Assembly: GCF_002001205.1 (NCBI RefSeq)
Contig: NZ_MUNZ01000055.1
Span: 1-64,000, forward strand
DNA from: Hydrogenophaga sp. A37
GTDB taxonomy: Bacteria; Pseudomonadota; Gammaproteobacteria; Burkholderiales; Burkholderiaceae_C
Length of the DNA: 64,000 nt
Direction: 5' to 3'
Both the position numbers and the translations under genes were made by a program. Shown here in pieces: positions 10,265 through 46,882 of this stretch. Positions within the stretch are counted from its first letter, which is position 1. Each line of letters starts with the position of its first letter. A model generated the notes under the pieces. It had not been told where the DNA came from. It saw only the letters and a program-made list of their open reading frames with translations, and did no database searches.

Positions 10265-10480
10265 ATGCCCTACGTCAACATCAAGATCACCAGGGAGGGG
10301 GCCACCCCCGAGCAGAAAGCCGAACTGATCCGCGGCACCACCGACCTGCTGGTGCGGGTGCTCCACAAGAACCCCGCCACCACCTTTGTCGTGATCGACG
10401 AGGTCGAGACCGGGGACTGGGGCATTGCCGGCGAGACCGTCGCGGTGCTGCGCCAGCGCAACGCGGAGAAGCCGGCATGA
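10265..10480 (+). CDS. 4-oxalocrotonate tautomerase family protein
   Basis: The 71-residue protein has Pro as residue 2 (MPYVNIKITREG), which becomes the N-terminal catalytic proline after Met removal. The size and the TTFVVIDEVETGDWGI segment are those of the 4-OT/MIF family. It would catalyse a keto-enol tautomerisation, probably alongside the preceding flavoenzyme. Its stop codon overlaps an ATG that begins the 66-bp coupling cassette before the next gene. Confidence 0.9.
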   Translation: MPYVNIKITREGATPEQKAELIRGTTDLLVRVLHKNPATTFVVIDEVETGDWGIAGETVAVLRQRNAEKPA

Positions 10481-10542
10481 GCGCCGCGCCGGGCCGTTCC
10501 CAAGCAAGCTCGCACCGCAGCCCGAAGGGCGAAGGTACTCCA
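10477..10542 (+). repeat. 66-bp gene-junction cassette, copy A
   Basis: It runs from the ATG that overlaps the tautomerase stop (ATGA) to the base before an in-frame GTG at 10543. A 14-base direct repeat (TGAGCGCCGCGCCG) occurs at 10478-10491 and again at 10544-10557, 66 bases apart. Copies of the same length and layout are at 37456-37521 and 45836-45901. This copy is the most diverged of the three and has GAAGGT as its ribosome-site-like end. Confidence 0.7.
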
Positions 10543-10962
10543 GTGAGCGCCGCGCCGAACCAGAGCGCCGCCACCTTCCAGGCGCTGCATGCGGTGCTGC
10601 AGAACTACTTCGATGGTCTCCACCACAGCGACACGCAGCGGCTGCGCCAGGTCTTTCACGAGGCCGCCGTGTACGCCTGCGCGACCGACACCCCCCCATT
10701 GATACGGCGCATGCCGGAGTATTTCGCTGTCGTCGACGCCAGACCCTCTCCTTACAGCCGGGGCGAGCAGCGCACCGACCGTGTGCTGTCCATCGAGCTG
10801 GTGGGCTCCAGCACCGCGCTGGCCCGGGTGGTGTGTTCGATCGGGCCGAAGCACTTCACCGACGTGCTCAGCTTCATTCACGCCGACGGTCGCTGGCAGA
10901 TCATTGCCAAGGTCTTTCACTACGAGCTGTCGGCGCCCGCCGCTGCCACCGTGCCGTCCTGA
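10543..10962 (+). CDS. NTF2-like family protein (SnoaL-type)
   Basis: A small alpha+beta protein of 139 residues from the GTG at 10543, or 161 from the ATG at 10477. The NTF2-like cone shows in ALHAVLQNYFDGLHHSD, LRQVFHEAAVYACA and DVLSFIHADGRWQIIAKVFH. Many such proteins are putative lyases or enzymes on small organic substrates; the activity here is unknown. The GTG start is preferred because the extra 22 residues come from the repeated cassette. It is translationally coupled to the tautomerase gene and may act on the same metabolite. Confidence 0.75.
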   Translation: MSAAPNQSAATFQALHAVLQNYFDGLHHSDTQRLRQVFHEAAVYACATDTPPLIRRMPEYFAVVDARPSPYSRGEQRTDRVLSIELVGSSTALARVVCSIGPKHFTDVLSFIHADGRWQIIAKVFHYELSAPAAATVPS

Positions 10963-28220: not shown

Positions 28221-28305
28221 GCCCGGGTGGTGAAATTGGTAGACGCAGGGGACTCAAAATCCCCCGCCGCAAGGCGTGCCGGTTCGATTCCGGCCCCGGG
28301 CACCA
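28221..28305 (+). tRNA. tRNA-Leu (anticodon CAA)
   Basis: This 85-base class II tRNA has acceptor arms GCCCGGG and CCCGGGC, a D-arm with GGTGAAATTGGTAGAC, and an anticodon stem GGGGA/TCCCC around CTCAAAA, giving anticodon CAA for TTG. It has a long variable arm, a TTCGATTC T-loop and an encoded CCA. A CCATAATT box at about 28193 may be its -10. The restriction island starts immediately downstream. Confidence 0.97.
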
Positions 28306-34147: not shown

Positions 34148-37100
34148 ATGGGCTGGGAACTGGACGAGGTCGAACGACCCTTTGTCGAACAACTGCAGGC
34201 CATGGGCTGGCGGTATGTGGCCGGCCACCTGAACAACCCAGCCACCACGGGCCGGGCCAGCTTCACCGAAGTCATCCAGGAAGCCACGCTGCGCCGGCAG
34301 ATCCACGCGCTGAATCTGCGTGATGTGAATGGTCAAGACCAGCCCTGGCTGGACGAAGAGCGCCTGACCCAGGCCATTGGCGCACTGACCCGCATCCCGG
34401 CCCACCGGCTGATGGAAGCCAACCGCGCAGCGACCGATCTGCTGCTGGGAGGCCTCACGGTGGAGGGCTTGCCCGGCTGGGACGGCGGGCGCCACCAGAC
34501 CATCCACTACATCGACTGGGCGCACCCCGAGCGCAACGAGTTCACGGTGGTCAACCAGTACCGGGTGGACTGCCCGCCGGGCTACACGCGCGGCAAGGCC
34601 TTCATCGTGCCCGACCTGGTGCTGCTGGTGAACGGCATTCCGCTGGTGGTGGTGGAGTGCAAAAGCCCCAGCGTGCCCGAGCCCCTGGCCGAGGCGGTGG
34701 ACCAACTGCGCCGCTACAGCAACCAGCGGCGCGCCAGCGGTGAGGTGGACGACAACGAAGGCAACGAGCCGCTGTTCCACACCAACCAGTTGCTGATCGC
34801 GACCAGCTATGACGAAGCCCGAGTGGGCAGCGTGGGCGCGGCCTTCCAGCACTACGCCGCGTGGAAAACGGTGGCCGGCGCTGACGGTCAGGGCACCGAG
34901 GCCGACGTGGCAACCGCGCTGGGCAAAGCCCAACTCTCGGAGCAAGAGCGCCTGGTGGCCGGCCTGCTGCGCCCGGCGCACCTGTTGGACGTGGTGCAGC
35001 ACTTCACGCTGTTCATGGCGGCCGATGGCCAGACCTTCAAGTCGGTCTGCCGCTACCAGCAGTACCGGGCGGTGAACCGTGCCATCCACCGCTTGCGCAC
35101 CGGCCAGACGCGGCTGCAAGACGGCGAATTCGACCGGCGCGGTGGCATCGTCTGGCACACCCAGGGCTCCGGCAAGAGCCTGACCATGGTGTTCCTGATG
35201 CGCAAACTGCGCTCAGACCCGCAGCTGCGCCGCTTCAAGGTGGTGGTGGTAACCGACCGCAACGACCTGGAAGCGCAGCTCTCGGCCACCGCCACGCTGA
35301 CCGGCCAGAACGTGCTGCGCGCCACCTCGGCCGAAGACCTGAAGCGGCACCTGCGCCGCCAGGGGCCGGACATCGTGTTCGGCATGATCCAGAAGCAACG
35401 TGGCGGCGATGCCGCTGGCGAGCCGGGCCTGAAAGCGGAAGACCTGCCCCGGCTGGTGGCCCGCGAGGTGGCGCCCAAAGCCTACGAGCCCGAGGTGCTG
35501 AACGAGGACGAGCACATCCTGGTGATGGTGGACGAGGCCCACCGCGGCCAGGCGGGCGACCTGCACGCCGCGTTGCAGGTGGGCCTGCCCAACTGCGCCC
35601 GCATCGGTTTCACCGGCACGCCGATCTTGATGGGCGACAAGAAGCGCACCCACGAAATCTTCGGCGAATTCATCGACCGCTACACGATCCGCGAGGCCGA
35701 GGCAGACGGCGCCATCGTGCCCATCCTCTACGAGGGCCGCACGGCACACGGCGCGGTAAAGGACGGTGCCAATCTGGACGAGCTGTTTGAAGACCTGTTC
35801 CGTGAGCACACGCCCGAAGAGCTGGAAGCCATCAAGCAGAAGTACGCCACCCGGGGCCACATCTTCGAAGCGCCGGACCTGATTGCCGACAAGGCGCGCG
35901 ACATGCTGCGCCACTACGTGACACACATCTTGCCCAACGGCTTCAAGGCCCAGGTGGTGGCCTACAGCCGGCTGGCGGTGGTGCGCTACCTGGATGCGTT
36001 CATGGTCGCCCGCACCGAGCTGCTGGCCGAGGCCCACGCGCTGAGCCCGCAAGACAAGGCGCTGGACGACGAGGCCCTGTGCCAGCGGCCGGCGGGCGTG
36101 CAGGCCCAGGTGCAAGCCTGGCGCTACCGAGAGCTGCTGGCCAGGATCGAATTCGCCCCGGTGATCTCGGGCGGCAACAACGACGACCCGGCCTGGAAGC
36201 CATGGACCGACAGCGGTGCTCAGAAGGAGCGCATCGACCGCTTCAAGAAGCCGCTGCTGCACGCCAACCCGGCCAAGACCGACCCGCTGGCCTTCCTGGT
36301 GGTGAAGTCCATGCTGCTGACCGGTTTTGACGCCCCCATTGAGGGCGTGATGTACCTGGACAGGCCAATTCGCGAGGCGGAGCTGTTGCAGACCATCGCC
36401 CGGGTGAACCGCACCGGTTACGGCAAGAAGTTCGGCATCGTGGTGGACTACTTTGGCCTGGCCCACCACCTCAAAGAGGCACTGAACGTCTATGCCGATG
36501 AAGACATTGACGGTGCTTTGCAAAGCCTGAAAGACGAGGTGCCCGTGCTGCGCGACCGGCACCTGCGGGTGGTGGACCTGTTCCGCAGCCGCGGCATTGA
36601 AAACCTGTCCGACCACGAAGCCTGCGTGGAAGCCCTGGCCGACGAGCGTCTGCGAGCCGAATTCGCCGTGAAGCTCAAGGCCTTCCTGGACACGCTGGAC
36701 GTGGTGCTGCCGCGGCCCGAGGGCCTGCCGTTTTCGCCCGACGCCAAGCTGCTGGCCTTCATCTACGCCCGCGCCCGCAACCGCTACCGAGACACGCCCG
36801 TGCTGGGCAAGGACGTGGGCGCCAAGGTGCGCAAGCTGATTGACGACCACGTGGTGTCGATGGGCGTGGACCCGAAGATTCCGCCGGTGTCGCTGACCGA
36901 CGCCGACTTCGGCAACAAGGTGGCCCGCGAACCAAACGACCGCGCCAAGGCTTCGGAGATGGAGCACGCGATCCGCGCTCACATTCGCGAGCACATGGAC
37001 CAGGACCCAGTGGCCTACCGCAAGCTCAGTGATCGACTGCGCGATCTGCTGACCCAGATGGGCGAGCAGTGGAACGAGCTGGCGGCATCACTGCAAGTGC

Positions 37101-37459
37101 TGGTGGACGAGATCCGCAGCGGCCATGTGGGCGACGACGACCGCCTGCCGGACCTGCCCAAGCACTATGGGCCGTTCTTGCGCCTGGTGGTGGACACGGC
37201 TGCTGGTGCGCGCGAGCTGAGCGAGCCTGAGCAGAAGAAGCTGACCGACCTGACAGCGGAGGTGGTGGACACCATCGTGGCCGAGCTGGTGCCGAATTTC
37301 TGGCGCCCGAACCGGCAACCGGCTCAGGACGCACTGGGCACAAGGATCTTCTCGATCTTGATGGCTTCCCGCCTGATGCCCACACCGCAGATTGAGGCCT
37401 TGGTGGACAAGCTGATGGAGCTGGCGCGGGCCAACCACGACCGGTTGCTGAAGGTATGA
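34148..37459 (+). CDS. hsdR: Type I restriction endonuclease subunit R
   Basis: The 1103-residue ATP-dependent translocase and nuclease has an N-terminal PD-(D/E)xK nuclease (PDLVLLVNGIPLVVVECKSP, near 153-172), Walker A HTQGSGKS near 336-343, DEAH box VDEAHRG near 460, and helicase motif VI-like QTIARVNRTGYGKK. The C-terminal helical part is complete. It cuts unmodified DNA far from the HsdS site. It is separated from the rest of the operon by a 252-base gap with a phased repeat, so it may have separate control. Its stop is fused to the 66-bp junction cassette. Confidence 0.95.
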   Translation: MGWELDEVERPFVEQLQAMGWRYVAGHLNNPATTGRASFTEVIQEATLRRQIHALNLRDVNGQDQPWLDEERLTQAIGALTRIPAHRLMEANRAATDLLLGGLTVEGLPGWDGGRHQTIHYIDWAHPERNEFTVVNQYRVDCPPGYTRGKAFIVPDLVLLVNGIPLVVVECKSPSVPEPLAEAVDQLRRYSNQRRASGEVDDNEGNEPLFHTNQLLIATSYDEARVGSVGAAFQHYAAWKTVAGADGQGTEADVATALGKAQLSEQERLVAGLLRPAHLLDVVQHFTLFMAADGQTFKSVCRYQQYRAVNRAIHRLRTGQTRLQDGEFDRRGGIVWHTQGSGKSLTMVFLMRKLRSDPQLRRFKVVVVTDRNDLEAQLSATATLTGQNVLRATSAEDLKRHLRRQGPDIVFGMIQKQRGGDAAGEPGLKAEDLPRLVAREVAPKAYEPEVLNEDEHILVMVDEAHRGQAGDLHAALQVGLPNCARIGFTGTPILMGDKKRTHEIFGEFIDRYTIREAEADGAIVPILYEGRTAHGAVKDGANLDELFEDLFREHTPEELEAIKQKYATRGHIFEAPDLIADKARDMLRHYVTHILPNGFKAQVVAYSRLAVVRYLDAFMVARTELLAEAHALSPQDKALDDEALCQRPAGVQAQVQAWRYRELLARIEFAPVISGGNNDDPAWKPWTDSGAQKERIDRFKKPLLHANPAKTDPLAFLVVKSMLLTGFDAPIEGVMYLDRPIREAELLQTIARVNRTGYGKKFGIVVDYFGLAHHLKEALNVYADEDIDGALQSLKDEVPVLRDRHLRVVDLFRSRGIENLSDHEACVEALADERLRAEFAVKLKAFLDTLDVVLPRPEGLPFSPDAKLLAFIYARARNRYRDTPVLGKDVGAKVRKLIDDHVVSMGVDPKIPPVSLTDADFGNKVAREPNDRAKASEMEHAIRAHIREHMDQDPVAYRKLSDRLRDLLTQMGEQWNELAASLQVLVDEIRSGHVGDDDRLPDLPKHYGPFLRLVVDTAAGARELSEPEQKKLTDLTAEVVDTIVAELVPNFWRPNRQPAQDALGTRIFSILMASRLMPTPQIEALVDKLMELARANHDRLLKV

Positions 37460-37521
37460 GCAGCCGCCCGGCCGTTCTGAAGGCGCTCAGCCCCGCAGTG
37501 CGCAGCACGGAGGGTAGGCCC
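37456..37521 (+). repeat. 66-bp gene-junction cassette, copy B
   Basis: It runs from the ATG overlapping the hsdR stop (gtATGAgc) to the base before GTG at 37522. It contains CCCCGCAGTGCGCAGCACGG and ends in GGAGGGT eight bases before the GTG. It is 66 bases long, as are copies A and C, and is close to C in sequence. Translated it would read MSSRPAVLKALSPAVRSTEG followed by RP. Confidence 0.8.
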
Positions 37522-38217
37522 GTGAACACGTTGACGGTCAACGACTTGCGGTTCGAGGTGCGGCGCAGCGCCCAGCGGCGCGTGCTGGAGATCACCGTGG
37601 ACCGAGGTGGCGAACTGATCATGTCGGCACCGCCCGAAGTGCCCGACGCCCAGCTGCTCGAGTTCGCCCAACGCAAACGCATGTGGGTCTACAAGCAACT
37701 GGCGAAGAAGGAAGCATCGACCCACGAGGTGCGGCGCAAGCAGTTCACCGAAGGCGAGGGGTTCGCCTACCTGGGTCGCAACTACCGGCTGCGCCTGGTG
37801 CACGAGTCTGATGCGGCGGTGAAGCTGGTGAGCGGCCGGTTCGTCATGCCGAAGCTGCTGGCGCGTGATGGCCGGGAACATCTGATCCGGTGGTATTGCG
37901 AACGCGCCAAGCCGTGGCTCGCCGGCAAGGTGGAAGAGTACGCCGCCCGCATGGAGGTGAGCCCTGCCGGCGTGCGCGTGCAAGACCTGGGCTACCGCTG
38001 GGGCTCATGCGGCAAGGGTGACCTGCTGTACTTCCACTGGAAGACGATTTTGCTGCCCGCGCGCATCGCCGAATACGTGGTGGTGCACGAAATGGCCCAC
38101 CTGCATGAGCCGCACCACACGCCAGAATTTTGGCGCAGGGTGGAGCGGGCGATGCCGGACTACGAGCGGAGAAAGGACTGGCTGGCGGAGCGCGGGATGC
38201 AAGTCGAGGGACTGTGA
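37522..38217 (+). CDS. YgjP-like metallopeptidase (M48/DUF45 type)
   Basis: From the GTG at 37522 the protein has 231 residues; from the ATG at 37456 it has 253. The zinc site is VVHEMAHLHEPHHTPEFW (HExxH plus a distal His) with the preceding YRWGSCGKGDLLYFHW block, as in E. coli YgjP and archaeal relatives. Such proteases are common partners of type I RM operons, possibly in turnover of HsdR or in anti-phage function; that role is not proven. It is coupled to hsdR through cassette B. Confidence 0.88.
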   Translation: MNTLTVNDLRFEVRRSAQRRVLEITVDRGGELIMSAPPEVPDAQLLEFAQRKRMWVYKQLAKKEASTHEVRRKQFTEGEGFAYLGRNYRLRLVHESDAAVKLVSGRFVMPKLLARDGREHLIRWYCERAKPWLAGKVEEYAARMEVSPAGVRVQDLGYRWGSCGKGDLLYFHWKTILLPARIAEYVVVHEMAHLHEPHHTPEFWRRVERAMPDYERRKDWLAERGMQVEGL

Positions 38218-43792: not shown

Positions 43793-44713
43793 TCAGCCCC
43801 GCAGCCCTTCGTTCACCGTCGGGTAGCGCAGGCTCAGGCGCAGTTCGGCCTTCATGCGCTGGTTGTGCAGCCGGCGCGACTCGCTCATGAAGCTCAGTAG
43901 CACCAAGGGCAGCTGGTCGCCCGCCGCGTCGCGGGCGATGCGTGGCGGGCGCGGCAGGCCATACAGATCGGCCGCGAGATCGAAGTAGTCGCCCATCAGG
44001 AGCTGGCTGTCGTCCACCACGTTGACGTTGCGCTGCGGCCGGCCACGCCAGAGCGCGAGCGCACAGGCGCGCCCCAGGTCGTCGGCGTGGATGTGGTTGG
44101 TGTAGACATCGTCTTGTGCGAGCAGCACCGGCGTGCCGCGCTGCAGACGCTCGCGCGGCGTGCCGCCGGCGCGGTCGGGCGCGTAGATGCCGGGAATGCG
44201 CAGCACCGAGGTGCGCACGCCCAGCGCGCGACCGAGCCAGTGCACCGAGGCCTCGGCATCCACGCGCCGCCAGGCCCGGGGCGTCTGGGGCTGTGTGGGC
44301 GTGGCTTCATTCACCCAGCGGCCCTGGCTGTCGCCGTACACGCCAGTCGTGGAGCCATAGACCAGCGACACCGGCACCGAGCGCCGGGCCAGGGCGTGCA
44401 CCAGGTTGCGCGTGCGGGGATCGAACCGCCAGTCGGCCTGGTTTTCAGAGGGCGGCGGCGCGAGGTGCAGCACCCGCGTGGCCAGGCCAGCCAGCCGCTG
44501 CAGGCTGCGCGGATCGTCGAGGTTGCCTTGCAGCGGCGTGATGCCCTGGGCACGCAGATCGGCGTTGCGCTCGGGCGACGACGTGAGGGCCAGCAGGCGG
44601 GCCCGCCGTCCCGAACCCAGCGCACGTGCCGCGCGTTGGCCCACGTCGCCGCAGCCGATGATGAGCACCCGCTCGCGGCGGAAGCGTGCGGGGAGAGCGC
44701 CAGAAGGGTTCAT
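43793..44713 (-). CDS. YeeZ-like NAD(P)-binding SDR family protein
   Basis: The 306-residue protein has the Rossmann motif VLIIGCGDVGQRAARAL near residue 16, YGSTTGVYGDSQG, IPGIYAPDR and HIHADDLGRA. The layout is that of atypical short-chain epimerases such as E. coli YeeZ, whose reaction is unknown. The start at 44713 follows the family; a longer frame overlaps the promoter of the divergent ferredoxin reductase. Confidence 0.88.
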   Translation of the reverse strand: MNPSGALPARFRRERVLIIGCGDVGQRAARALGSGRRARLLALTSSPERNADLRAQGITPLQGNLDDPRSLQRLAGLATRVLHLAPPPSENQADWRFDPRTRNLVHALARRSVPVSLVYGSTTGVYGDSQGRWVNEATPTQPQTPRAWRRVDAEASVHWLGRALGVRTSVLRIPGIYAPDRAGGTPRERLQRGTPVLLAQDDVYTNHIHADDLGRACALALWRGRPQRNVNVVDDSQLLMGDYFDLAADLYGLPRPPRIARDAAGDQLPLVLLSFMSESRRLHNQRMKAELRLSLRYPTVNEGLRG

Positions 44714-44807
44714 GCCAGGCCAGATTTGCGAGAATGACGGGTTGTTTGGCCGGCGACTCCGCCGCCATGCACTGCCCACAGACAACCACTTTAGCCCTTT
44801 TCAAACC

Positions 44808-45839
44808 ATGACCTTCACCATCACCGTCGAGCCCAGCGGCCGTGTCTTCAGCGCCGAGTCCGGCGAAGCCATCCTCGCCGCGGGCATCCGCCAGGGCATT
44901 GGCCTGCCCTACGGCTGCAAGGACGGCGCTTGCGGCTCGTGCAAATGCAAGTTGGTGAGCGGCAGCGTGGCCCACGGCCCGCACCAGGCCAAGGCGCTGA
45001 GCGCGGAGGAAGAAGCGGCGGGTTACGTGCTGACCTGCTGCGGCGTGGCGCAATCGGACGTGACGCTGGAGTCGCGCCAGGTCACCGAAGCCGGCGCCTT
45101 CCCGATCAAGAAGATGCCGGTGCGCGTGAGCAGCCTGGAGCGCGCGTCGCACGACGTGATCGTGCTCAAGCTGCAACTGCCGGCGGCCGACGCCTTCCAG
45201 TACCACGCGGGCCAATACGTCGAGTTTCTGCTGCGCGACGGCGACCGCCGCAGCTATTCCATGGCCAACGCGCCCCACACCCAGGCCAGCGGCAACTGGG
45301 TCGAGCTGCACCTGCGCCACATGCCCGGCGGCAAGTTCACCGACCACGCGTTCGCCACGATGAAGGAGAAAGACATCCTGCGCATTGAGGGGCCTTACGG
45401 CAGCTTCTTCCTGCGCGAAGACAGCGACAAGCCCCTCGTGCTGCTGGCCTCGGGCACGGGTTTCGCGCCGATCAAGGCGCTGATCGAACACATGCAGCAC
45501 AAGGGCATCACCCGCCCGGCCACGCTGTACTGGGGCGGCCGCCGCCCGTCCGATCTGTACCAGAACGCCTGGGTCGAGGCCCAGCTGGCCACCATGCCCA
45601 ACCTGCGCTACGTGCCGGTGATCTCGGACGCCTTGCCCGAAGACGCCTGGACCGGCCGCACCGGCTTCGTGCACAGCGCGGTGCTGCAAGACTTCCCCGA
45701 TCTCTCGGGCCACCAGGTCTACGCCTGTGGTGCGCCCATCGTGGTGGATTCGGCCCGCGCGCAATACACCGCCTTGGCCGGCCTGCCGCCCGAAGAGTTC
45801 TACGCGGACTCCTTCACCAGCGCGAAAGACAAGGTATGA
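44808..45839 (+). CDS. Ferredoxin-type NAD(P)H oxidoreductase (CDP-6-deoxy-delta-3,4-glucoseen reductase-like)
   Basis: The 343-residue protein has an N-terminal plant-type [2Fe-2S] domain (CKDGACGSCKCKL with Cys37, 42 and 45, and a fourth Cys in LTCCG). It is followed by an FAD domain (RRSYSMANAP) and an NAD-binding domain (LLASGTGFAPIKALIEH). It moves electrons from NAD(P)H through FAD to the iron-sulfur centre for a partner oxygenase or dehydratase, not identified here. In Burkholderiales this type is usually named as above. The stop is fused to cassette C. Confidence 0.88.
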   Translation: MTFTITVEPSGRVFSAESGEAILAAGIRQGIGLPYGCKDGACGSCKCKLVSGSVAHGPHQAKALSAEEEAAGYVLTCCGVAQSDVTLESRQVTEAGAFPIKKMPVRVSSLERASHDVIVLKLQLPAADAFQYHAGQYVEFLLRDGDRRSYSMANAPHTQASGNWVELHLRHMPGGKFTDHAFATMKEKDILRIEGPYGSFFLREDSDKPLVLLASGTGFAPIKALIEHMQHKGITRPATLYWGGRRPSDLYQNAWVEAQLATMPNLRYVPVISDALPEDAWTGRTGFVHSAVLQDFPDLSGHQVYACGAPIVVDSARAQYTALAGLPPEEFYADSFTSAKDKV

Positions 45840-45901
45840 GCGCCCGCCCGGCCGCTCCGAAGGGCGCTCGCCCCGCAGTGCGCAGCACGGAGGGTCTTCC
45901 A
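45836..45901 (+). repeat. 66-bp gene-junction cassette, copy C
   Basis: It runs from the ATG overlapping the reductase stop (gtATGAgc) to the base before GTG at 45902, 66 bases as in copies A and B. CTCCG near its 20th base can pair with the CGGAG of the ribosome site GGAGGGT near its end, which would hide that site. Here the cassette cannot be part of the mature protein, because a signal peptide starts at the GTG. Confidence 0.8.
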
Positions 45902-46882
45902 GTGAACACCCGCCGCCAGCTGATCGCCCGCACGGCCTTGACCCTCGCAGCGGTCGTGGCTCCTGGCCTCGTCTGGGCCCAGGCCGACAAGGTCACGCGC
46001 ATCGTCGTGCCCTTCGCTGCCGGCGGACCGATCGACGTGACGGCGCGCATTCTGGCCGAAGCGGTGAAGGCGTCGCTGGGCACGGTGATCGTGGAGAACA
46101 AGCCGGGCGCCGGCGGCAACATCGGGGTGGCGGCAGTGGCGAAGTCCGCGCCCGACGGCCTGACGCTGGGCATCGCGACCACCGCGTCGCACGGCATCAA
46201 CCCCTGGCTGTTCTCCAAACTGCCCTACGACCCGGTGAAAGACTTCGCGCCGGTCACGCAGATGCTGCGCGTGCCCAATGTGCTGGTGATGAACGCCGAG
46301 GCGGCACAGCGCCTGAACATCGCCACGCTGGCCGACCTGATCCGCTACGCCAAGGCGAACCCCGGCAAGCTCAACTACGGCTCGGGCGGCAACGGCAGCG
46401 CGGGCCACCTGGCGGGCGAGATGTTCAAGCACCAGGCCGGTGTGTTCGCGGTGCACATCCCCTACAACGGTGGCAACCCGGCCCAGCTCGGGCTGCTCTC
46501 GGGTCAGGTCGATTTCAACTTCGACAACCTGGCCACCGCCTCGGCCAACATCCGCGCCGGCAAGCTGAGGGCACTCGCCGTGACCACGGCGCAACGCAGC
46601 GCGGCGATGCCCGAGGTGCCAGCTGTGGCCGAAACACTGAAGGGTCTCGAGATCGACACCTGGTGGGGGTTGGTCGCGCCCGCCGGCACACCGGCCGACA
46701 CCGTGCGCAAGCTCAACGCCACGTTCACCGAGGCGTTGAGATCACCCGACGTCAAGAACCGTTTTGCCGCCTTGATGGCCGAACCCGCACCGAGCTCGCC
46801 CGAAGCCTTCGCCGGCTTTCTGAACAGCGAGCGCGCCAAGTACGAGCGCGCGGTCAAGCTCAGCGGGGCGAAGGTGGATTGA
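45902..46882 (+). CDS. Bug-type tripartite tricarboxylate transporter binding protein
   Basis: The 326-residue periplasmic binding protein (TctC/Bug family) has a signal peptide starting exactly at the GTG (VNTRRQLIARTALTLAAVV, cleaved after VWA). The mature part has IVVPFAAGGPIDVTAR, ENKPGAGGNIG, PYNGGNPAQ and DTWWGLVAPAGTP. Its ligand is an organic acid of unknown type. No TctA or TctB genes are nearby, as is usual for the many orphan Bug proteins of Burkholderiales. The signal peptide argues for GTG 45902 over ATG 45836. Confidence 0.92.
   Translation: MNTRRQLIARTALTLAAVVAPGLVWAQADKVTRIVVPFAAGGPIDVTARILAEAVKASLGTVIVENKPGAGGNIGVAAVAKSAPDGLTLGIATTASHGINPWLFSKLPYDPVKDFAPVTQMLRVPNVLVMNAEAAQRLNIATLADLIRYAKANPGKLNYGSGGNGSAGHLAGEMFKHQAGVFAVHIPYNGGNPAQLGLLSGQVDFNFDNLATASANIRAGKLRALAVTTAQRSAAMPEVPAVAETLKGLEIDTWWGLVAPAGTPADTVRKLNATFTEALRSPDVKNRFAALMAEPAPSSPEAFAGFLNSERAKYERAVKLSGAKVD

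Follow-up and report, generated by a model that had tools for sequence, protein, structure and literature searches.

A short dispersed repeat found at stop/start overlaps in Hydrogenophaga and its relatives

Mobile DNA inside operons is normally harmful. The nearest published repeat to the element described here is the BRE repeat of betaproteobacteria, to which it may be related. As described in the available part of its source, BRE measures 75-91 bp at full length in Bordetella, has partial copies of 40-60 bp, occurs in tandem and is also found in the Comamonadaceae (PMC3110155). Rickettsia palindromic elements (RPE) and MITE-like repeats allow a broad comparison, within the parts of their accounts that were available (PMC2229807, PMC2759123). 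For the junctions themselves, the accessible part of a study of gene overlaps in E. coli reports many pairs at which Shine-Dalgarno (SD) motifs within the upstream gene are important for reinitiation (PMC6728339). A literature search over titles and abstracts, which took in few subscription papers, found no repeat at stop/start overlaps among the matches listed, and neither that search nor Rfam gave the element a name.

Here we describe a repeat with a unit of 65-66 bp that came to attention in a window of 64,000 nucleotides from Hydrogenophaga sp. A37, the whole stretch of DNA that was analysed. With a probability of roughly two in three, it is in our reading a small mobile repeat, interspersed and non-autonomous, that inserts where a stop codon and a start codon overlap in a four-base NTGA, and that supplies its own SD. 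The initial annotation had proposed a mobile translational-coupling or attenuation element; the repetition and the insertion at coupled junctions stood up, and attenuation is not supported.

Copies, anatomy and spread of the repeat

The unit has a regular order: an NTGA that ends the upstream gene, two small hairpins, GGAGG or GAAGG, and a start codon that mostly lies 65 or 66 bases on. Three copies, A, B and C, lie in the window, and all features given for them are on the plus strand. Copy A, a type I copy with a 66-base unit, spans 10477-10545 from its NTGA to the start codon. The gene upstream of it belongs to the tautomerase family (71 aa, 10265-10480; Pfam PF01361) and has its TGA stop (10478-10480) inside the ATGA of the copy; the gene downstream belongs to a putative lumazine-binding family (139 aa, 10543-10962; PF12893) and has its GTG start (10543-10545) 66 bases from the ATG at 10477. 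In the consensus structure of an alignment of copies, A4, hairpin 1 of copy A falls at 10486-10505 and hairpin 2, ACC...GCCC-GAA-GGGC...GGT, at 10514-10536, where it overlaps the SD-like GAAGG at 10531-10535. Copy B (type II, 37456-37524) separates the gene for an HsdR-like type I restriction enzyme (1103 aa, 34148-37459; PF04313, PF18766) from that for a YgjP-like metallopeptidase (231 aa, 37522-38217; PF01863); the A4 consensus places its hairpins at 37464-37483 and 37492-37514 (GTGC-GCA-GCAC), with an SD-like GGAGG at 37509-37513. Copy C (45836-45904) lies between the gene for a Fer2/FAD/NAD-binding oxidoreductase (477 aa, 44406-45839; PF00111, PF00970, PF00175) and that for a TctC tricarboxylate transporter receptor (326 aa, 45902-46882; PF03401), with A4 hairpins at 45844-45863 and 45872-45894 (GTGC-GCA-GCAC) and an SD-like GGAGG at 45889-45893.

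This layout agrees with what had been annotated from the letters. The distance from ATG to GTG is exactly 66 bases in all three copies (10477 to 10543, 37456 to 37522 and 45836 to 45902), the TGA within each ATGA is the stop of the upstream reading frame, and the host genes are unrelated as claimed, the Pfam families of the flanking genes all being different. A covariance model, R1, was built from A, C and four other copies of the same genome, with B not among them. It scores A at 86.8, C at 76.6 and B at 52.2 bits, and the next-best match in the window reaches 17.7 bits. The three copies are of equal length, yet one-base indels separate A from both others. Judged by these scores, the assignment of A, B and C to one dispersed repeat family holds.

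At the Rfam gathering threshold the window returned a tRNA alone and nothing at the element, and a search of five loci at E<=5 gave four weak matches, none on the element. The tRNA, a tRNA-Leu (CAA) at 28221-28305, was the sole match in the window to Rfam (gathering) or ARAGORN.

Further copies, which the initial annotation had proposed to look for, are abundant. The strain's own genome (5.55 Mb in 195 contigs) has 74 R1 matches at 40 bits or more and 99 at E<=1, the weakest of which include relatives of another repeat; the 9 weakest were removed before counting. Within the genus, 32 of 36 genomes (this one included) match at 1e-6, with a patchy count of 0 to 87 per genome; none of 24 genomes from other families, part of 60 drawn as relatives, matches R1 at that threshold. 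Across the whole family the element occurs in at least 134 of 299 genomes and at least 78 of 141 genera, both lower bounds that result from stricter filters and from the scoring of 17 candidates per genome. An order-wide draw gave matches in 12 of 399 genomes. Four of the 12 belong to other families and have 1 to 5 matches apiece, and tandem units occur among these order-wide loci too (L424, L425, L427, L430). A pattern scan of named genomes yielded at least 110 stretches, and the 80 that were used come mostly from Variovorax, Hydrogenophaga, Rhodoferax and Comamonadaceae; fewer of those listed come from elsewhere (two Acidovorax, one Giesbergeria, one Pseudorhodoferax). Four plasmid records carry the element, three of which were inspected, and phage records gave no match to it.

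These observations describe a small interspersed non-autonomous repeat in the broad sense, with dispersed related copies that are present or absent at orthologous sites. A unit of 65-66 bp has no coding capacity for its own mobilisation, and the three subtypes encode three unrelated peptides. No mobilising enzyme was found: Y1 transposases are present in 15 of 18 genomes with no visible relation to copy number, two genomes with zero copies have a Y1 match, and a genome with 15 copies, 64% complete, has none. No terminal inverted repeats were seen by eye; the unit opens with NTGAGCGCC and closes with GGAGG, a spacer and NTGA.

The hairpins were assessed in A4, which holds 68 copies, 67 of them distinct, three of 71 reference copies having been left out. 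Hairpin 1 pairs columns 10-11 with 28-29 and 15-17 with 23-25, and hairpin 2 pairs columns 38-40 with 59-61 and 44-47 with 52-55. Pairing is intact in 95.9% of cells, against 80.2% in shuffles and 23-44% in slid controls. Cells changed on both sides number 120, against 45.6 in shuffles that ignore kinship; those at 10/29, 15/25 and 38/61 mainly split subtypes I and II. Two other measures in A4 are not above the shuffles, namely pairs with both-side change (5 versus 5.1) and further pair types (16 versus 16.1). The stem of hairpin 2 appears as GCCC/GGGC, GTGC/GCAC, GCTC/GAGC, GTCC/GGAC and GCGC/GCGC; its ACC pairs with GGT at the SD end, where both A-U and C-G are found. Among 137 copies in which a start codon comes behind the SD, 104 have an SD-to-start spacing of 7 nt and 124 have the start at an offset of 65 or 66.

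Such an arrangement might belong to a cis-regulatory RNA recruited by the host, in which the hairpins would hold the SD and tune or couple translation of the second gene, and copies at junctions would be kept for that regulation. The covarying hairpin 2, with its ACC-GGT pairing at the SD end, and the rather constant position and SD spacing fit this idea. Hairpins are, however, equally expected if structure in DNA or RNA serves mobility; the genes flanking A, B and C are unrelated, and copy number runs from 0 to 87 within one genus. Moreover, masking the hairpin's 5' side barely shifts predicted SD accessibility, from 0.42 to 0.45, with a rise in 34 of 59 copies (those below 40 bits excluded), so an SD switch in hairpin 2 is not supported. 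The same result gives the attenuation part of the initial proposal no support, and a regulatory RNA strikes us as improbable.

Position at stop/start overlaps and empty sites

Coding frames around the copies were called by a codon-usage score trained on the window, without annotation, and copies below 45 bits were excluded from these position counts and from the offset counts on 137 copies. The upstream frame stops at the element's own TGA (+1) in 41 of 59 arrays in the strain's own genome and in 55 of 77 named copies; of 80 control ATGAGC sites that lack the element, 1 has such a stop. This bears out the annotated position at stop/start overlaps. A start codon for the downstream gene stands at +65 or +66 in 37 of 57 own arrays and 51 of 77 named copies. 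These are not counts of independent events, since the copies are related and the named ones, picked by exact pattern, often come from one and the same genome; one own copy without enough flank was dropped from the position count, and four named copies without a recognisable NTGA were kept in the 77 with their position assumed. The codon score finds no clear upstream coding frame in 10 of the 59 own arrays and in 16 of the 77 named copies.

Deposited annotation of the plasmid copies gives a similar picture. In two, from Variovorax and Diaphorobacter, the upstream CDS ends at element base 4 and the downstream CDS starts at base 66, which is offset +65. The downstream CDS of a third plasmid copy, H3, also starts at +65; upstream, the annotation of H3 shows an IS110 transposase gene in antisense orientation as the neighbour, and none of its listed CDSs ends at the element.

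Two own copies (2 of 59 arrays) are in frame within one long reading frame, away from any junction. One, at L031 1504-1569 (C155:2373), forms a 22-residue linker with no stop of the upstream frame at the element, in what we take from the residues to be an apparent ModB-ModC fusion. The other, on the minus strand at L018 1497-1562 (C33:41428), follows the residues GLLADR in a frame that presumably, again from its residues, encodes a transporter-like protein.

Nine sites were compared with congeners in the search for empty sites that the initial annotation had suggested. Five show a clean empty site, each of them a four-base NTGA overlap, and the gain there is about 65-66 bases per unit. At the site of copy C, 25 of 30 loci have both flanks resolved (its own included) and 5 do not; 2 of the 25 are occupied, its own and that of G025 (94% identity), 20 have other spacers, and 3 are empty, with a GTGA overlap and a like downstream N-terminus (L303, L304, L308). 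The site C113:31377 is empty, as ATGA, in G025, G035 and G003, and C195:47409 is empty in G035. The two-unit array C139:11516 is empty in G025, with unrelated non-overlapping spacers in its place in G027 and G035. The site of copy A is an empty ATGA in G029 and is occupied in G035. No orthologous junction for site B was present among the loci compared, and C113:17367, C195:30578 and C139:5545 gave no information, as the corresponding region in congeners is either rearranged or lacks an NTGA overlap. Related strains with empty sites imply that the element was inserted, and by this comparison of orthologous sequence both its insertion and its junction position are established.

A separate observation comes from another genus (G147), where L432 661-734 is a junction resembling C113:31377 that carries a different variant of the element; with three congeners of the window strain empty there, either independent insertion or loss could account for it.

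We propose that the element enters the four-base NTGA at which the upstream stop overlaps the downstream start. After insertion the upstream gene would still end, at the TGA on the left edge of the element, and the downstream gene would start 65 or 66 bases later behind an SD borne by the element. At empty sites an SD-like stretch is visible in the upstream gene, for example GAGGAG ahead of ATGA in L398. The element's SD would replace this original one in the end of the upstream gene, by then too distant, and would keep the downstream gene translated.

The preference for such sites could instead reflect selection after random insertion. The element would then land widely, and only copies at NTGA junctions would survive, being harmless there; the stop, SD and start of the unit are just the features that would make a junction copy harmless, and both intragenic copies that were read are in frame. 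General reasoning says that non-coding DNA should tolerate copies too, yet most sit at junctions, and five of five clean empty sites are NTGA overlaps. We consider untargeted insertion doubtful on these grounds, and think it more likely that the element seeks out its site than that selection alone placed it there.

Ends, arrays and reading through the unit

At copy A the 14-base stretch TGAGCGCCGCGCCG occurs twice, at 10478 and 10544, as had been annotated. The left occurrence equals the consensus 5' end of the element; the right one has the look of a native MSAA-type start of the downstream gene, such as G029 has at the empty site. Direct repeats of 14 bp proved real at copy A and not general. 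Starting at the T of NTGA, the left and right ends are identical over at most 3 bases in 54 of the 137 copies and over 4 to 10 bases in 72; the identity extends to exactly 14, the length in copy A, in just 1, which led us to reject a 14-bp target duplication as a general rule, and to 18 or more in 10, as would be predicted when another unit lies behind. The right end carries TGA in 123 of 137 copies, and its NTGA is identical to the left one in only 66, so plain target duplication is not shown. A short duplication, from TGA to TGAGC, is possible, and genes starting ATGAGC would mimic it.

Units within arrays are spaced 60-68 bases apart, spacings of 52 (a cut copy) and 87 (a BRE-like pair) not being counted as arrays of the element. 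Subtypes are mixed in 6 of 10 own arrays by script, and in 7 when C40:4354 is counted, on inspection by eye, as type II. Slippage would hardly yield mixed arrays, which are what one would expect if each insertion leaves an NTGA at either end. With an NTGA at each end again, more copies could insert beside the first, and repeated insertion would build tandem arrays with a unit of about 65-66 bases.

Ribosomes restarting at the element's ATG could translate across the unit and pass to the next gene where it ends. The frame that begins there ends in the TGA of the downstream NTGA in 78 of the 137 copies and is in frame with the downstream start in 44, mostly at offset 66; among the remainder 7 overrun, 4 stop early and 4 are without a 5' start codon. 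The description of the unit as an in-frame cassette is thus right for the 44 and wrong for the 78. A second set of 76, from which 9 matches without NTGA were left out, gave 25 ending in the downstream TGA, 45 in frame, 3 overrunning and 3 stopping early.

The open frame in those 44 copies would also be expected if the unit simply coded for a conserved N-terminus of the downstream proteins. Orthologues at five sites are without the unit, and with it without the 22 residues whose presence in homologues would, by the initial annotation, have spoken against an inserted element; the three downstream genes in the window are unrelated, and the 78 copies end their frame at the downstream NTGA. With empty sites in hand and a frame that differs between subtypes, we rejected this explanation, which we regard as close to impossible. 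A leader peptide of conserved sequence was likewise rejected: indels between subtypes shift the frame and change the peptide, and three subtypes with three different peptides leave no conserved one.

Other measures of translation across the unit are mixed. In 25 of 28 arrays a relay that sets out at the first ATG arrives at the downstream start; about two thirds are expected from frame alone. Offsets other than 65 and 66 fit by remainder in 14 of 22 cases (9 of 13 and 5 of 9), again with about two thirds expected; the 65/66 rule was accordingly dropped as proof of a frame constraint, and since copies of other lengths fit at about chance, the dominance of 65 and 66 may simply reflect inherited length. 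The 189 distinct copies of at least 40 bits contain 14 internal stops, 1 of them in the relay frame (share expected by opportunity 0.35, P=0.02, with relatedness ignored). The copy at site A in G035 has no start codon at the usual distance behind its SD; the element's ATG is in frame there, and after it the frame offers no start before a GTG at offset 93. In a three-unit array from another family (L424 692-890, G720) both inner start codons are lost, and the frame stays open for 197 bases to an NTGA overlap.

On this evidence the element might be a transposable mini-cistron that targets coupled stop/start overlaps, is translated as a relay of about 22 codons and multiplies inside operons, a more specific proposal that we put forward tentatively and think has distinctly less than an even chance of being right. 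Each unit of about 22 codons would begin at the upstream NTGA and end in, or run in frame into, the downstream one; a relay that bridges NTGA to NTGA would multiply inside operons without uncoupling them, and each insertion would renew the target on either side.

As an inserted repeat, the element suggests a way round the harm that mobile DNA does in operons, namely insertion at a stop/start overlap together with a replacement stop, ribosome-binding site and start. The family offers natural matched junctions, with and without the unit, for testing termination-reinitiation. It can also mislead gene-start prediction by a false or real extension of 22 residues, and it supplies in-frame linkers, as in the apparent ModB-ModC fusion.

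Other repeats and comparison with known systems

A second abundant repeat met in these searches (L072 1540-1740, L076, L080, L317 15660-15745) has an element-like 5' half, GCAGGGCCGYCCCAAGCAAGC or close to it. Its 3' half differs, with a C-run, a G-run and GCAGCGA, and its period in L072 is 87. This second repeat with the 87-base period may be BRE. More short repeat families, for example with GGCCCGGCAAAGCCGGTTCC cores, have many congener matches; they lie at L317 4110-4345, 829-941, 15244-15347, 16805-16912 and 7875-7975 and at L318 3140-3300.

BRE resembles the element as a short, dispersed, GC-rich repeat of Burkholderiales that is tandem at some loci and variable in copy number between strains, in the part of its description available (PMC3110155). 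The element might then be a member of that published family, with nothing special about its junctions: copies of BRE are scattered, and also stand in tandem, in Comamonadaceae and Bordetella (PMC3110155), and weak R1 matches in the own genome share the 5' half of the element and repeat every 87 bases (L072). Going by these BRE-like matches, the two possibly have their 5' half in common. Full-length BRE, however, is 75-91 bp in Bordetella and usually intergenic, and the description available gives it no role at junctions and none for an SD or for stops and starts (PMC3110155); the unit here is 65-66 bp and mostly bound to junctions, with the offset of 65 or 66 in 124 of 137 copies lying below the range of full-length BRE. 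Membership in BRE is a rather remote prospect in our judgement.

The mobile repeat that we favour has more distant parallels as well. RPE is likewise a small non-autonomous repeat with an open frame that can add a peptide within genes, but it is 105-146 bp long and, in the available part of its account, has no tie to stop/start overlaps (PMC2229807), and copies of the element that read through a gene are only 2 of 59 own arrays. ERIC, RUP, Correia/NEMIS and other MITE-like repeats are also non-autonomous, interspersed and present in many copies, some with structure at the RNA level; the account available gives them mostly terminal inverted repeats, TA ends and A+T-richness, none of which is seen in the element, and does not describe for them the insertion at NTGA overlaps that marks it (PMC2229807). 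REP sequences with their Y1 (RAYT) transposases share hairpins and high copy number, but measure 20-40 bp in the part of the source available (PMC3733652), and Y1 genes do not track the copy number of the element. Termination-reinitiation coupling at ATGA, as far as its available account goes, concerns the same type of junction that the element invades, with the difference that the SD lies inside the upstream gene and the junction holds no mobile insert (PMC6728339).
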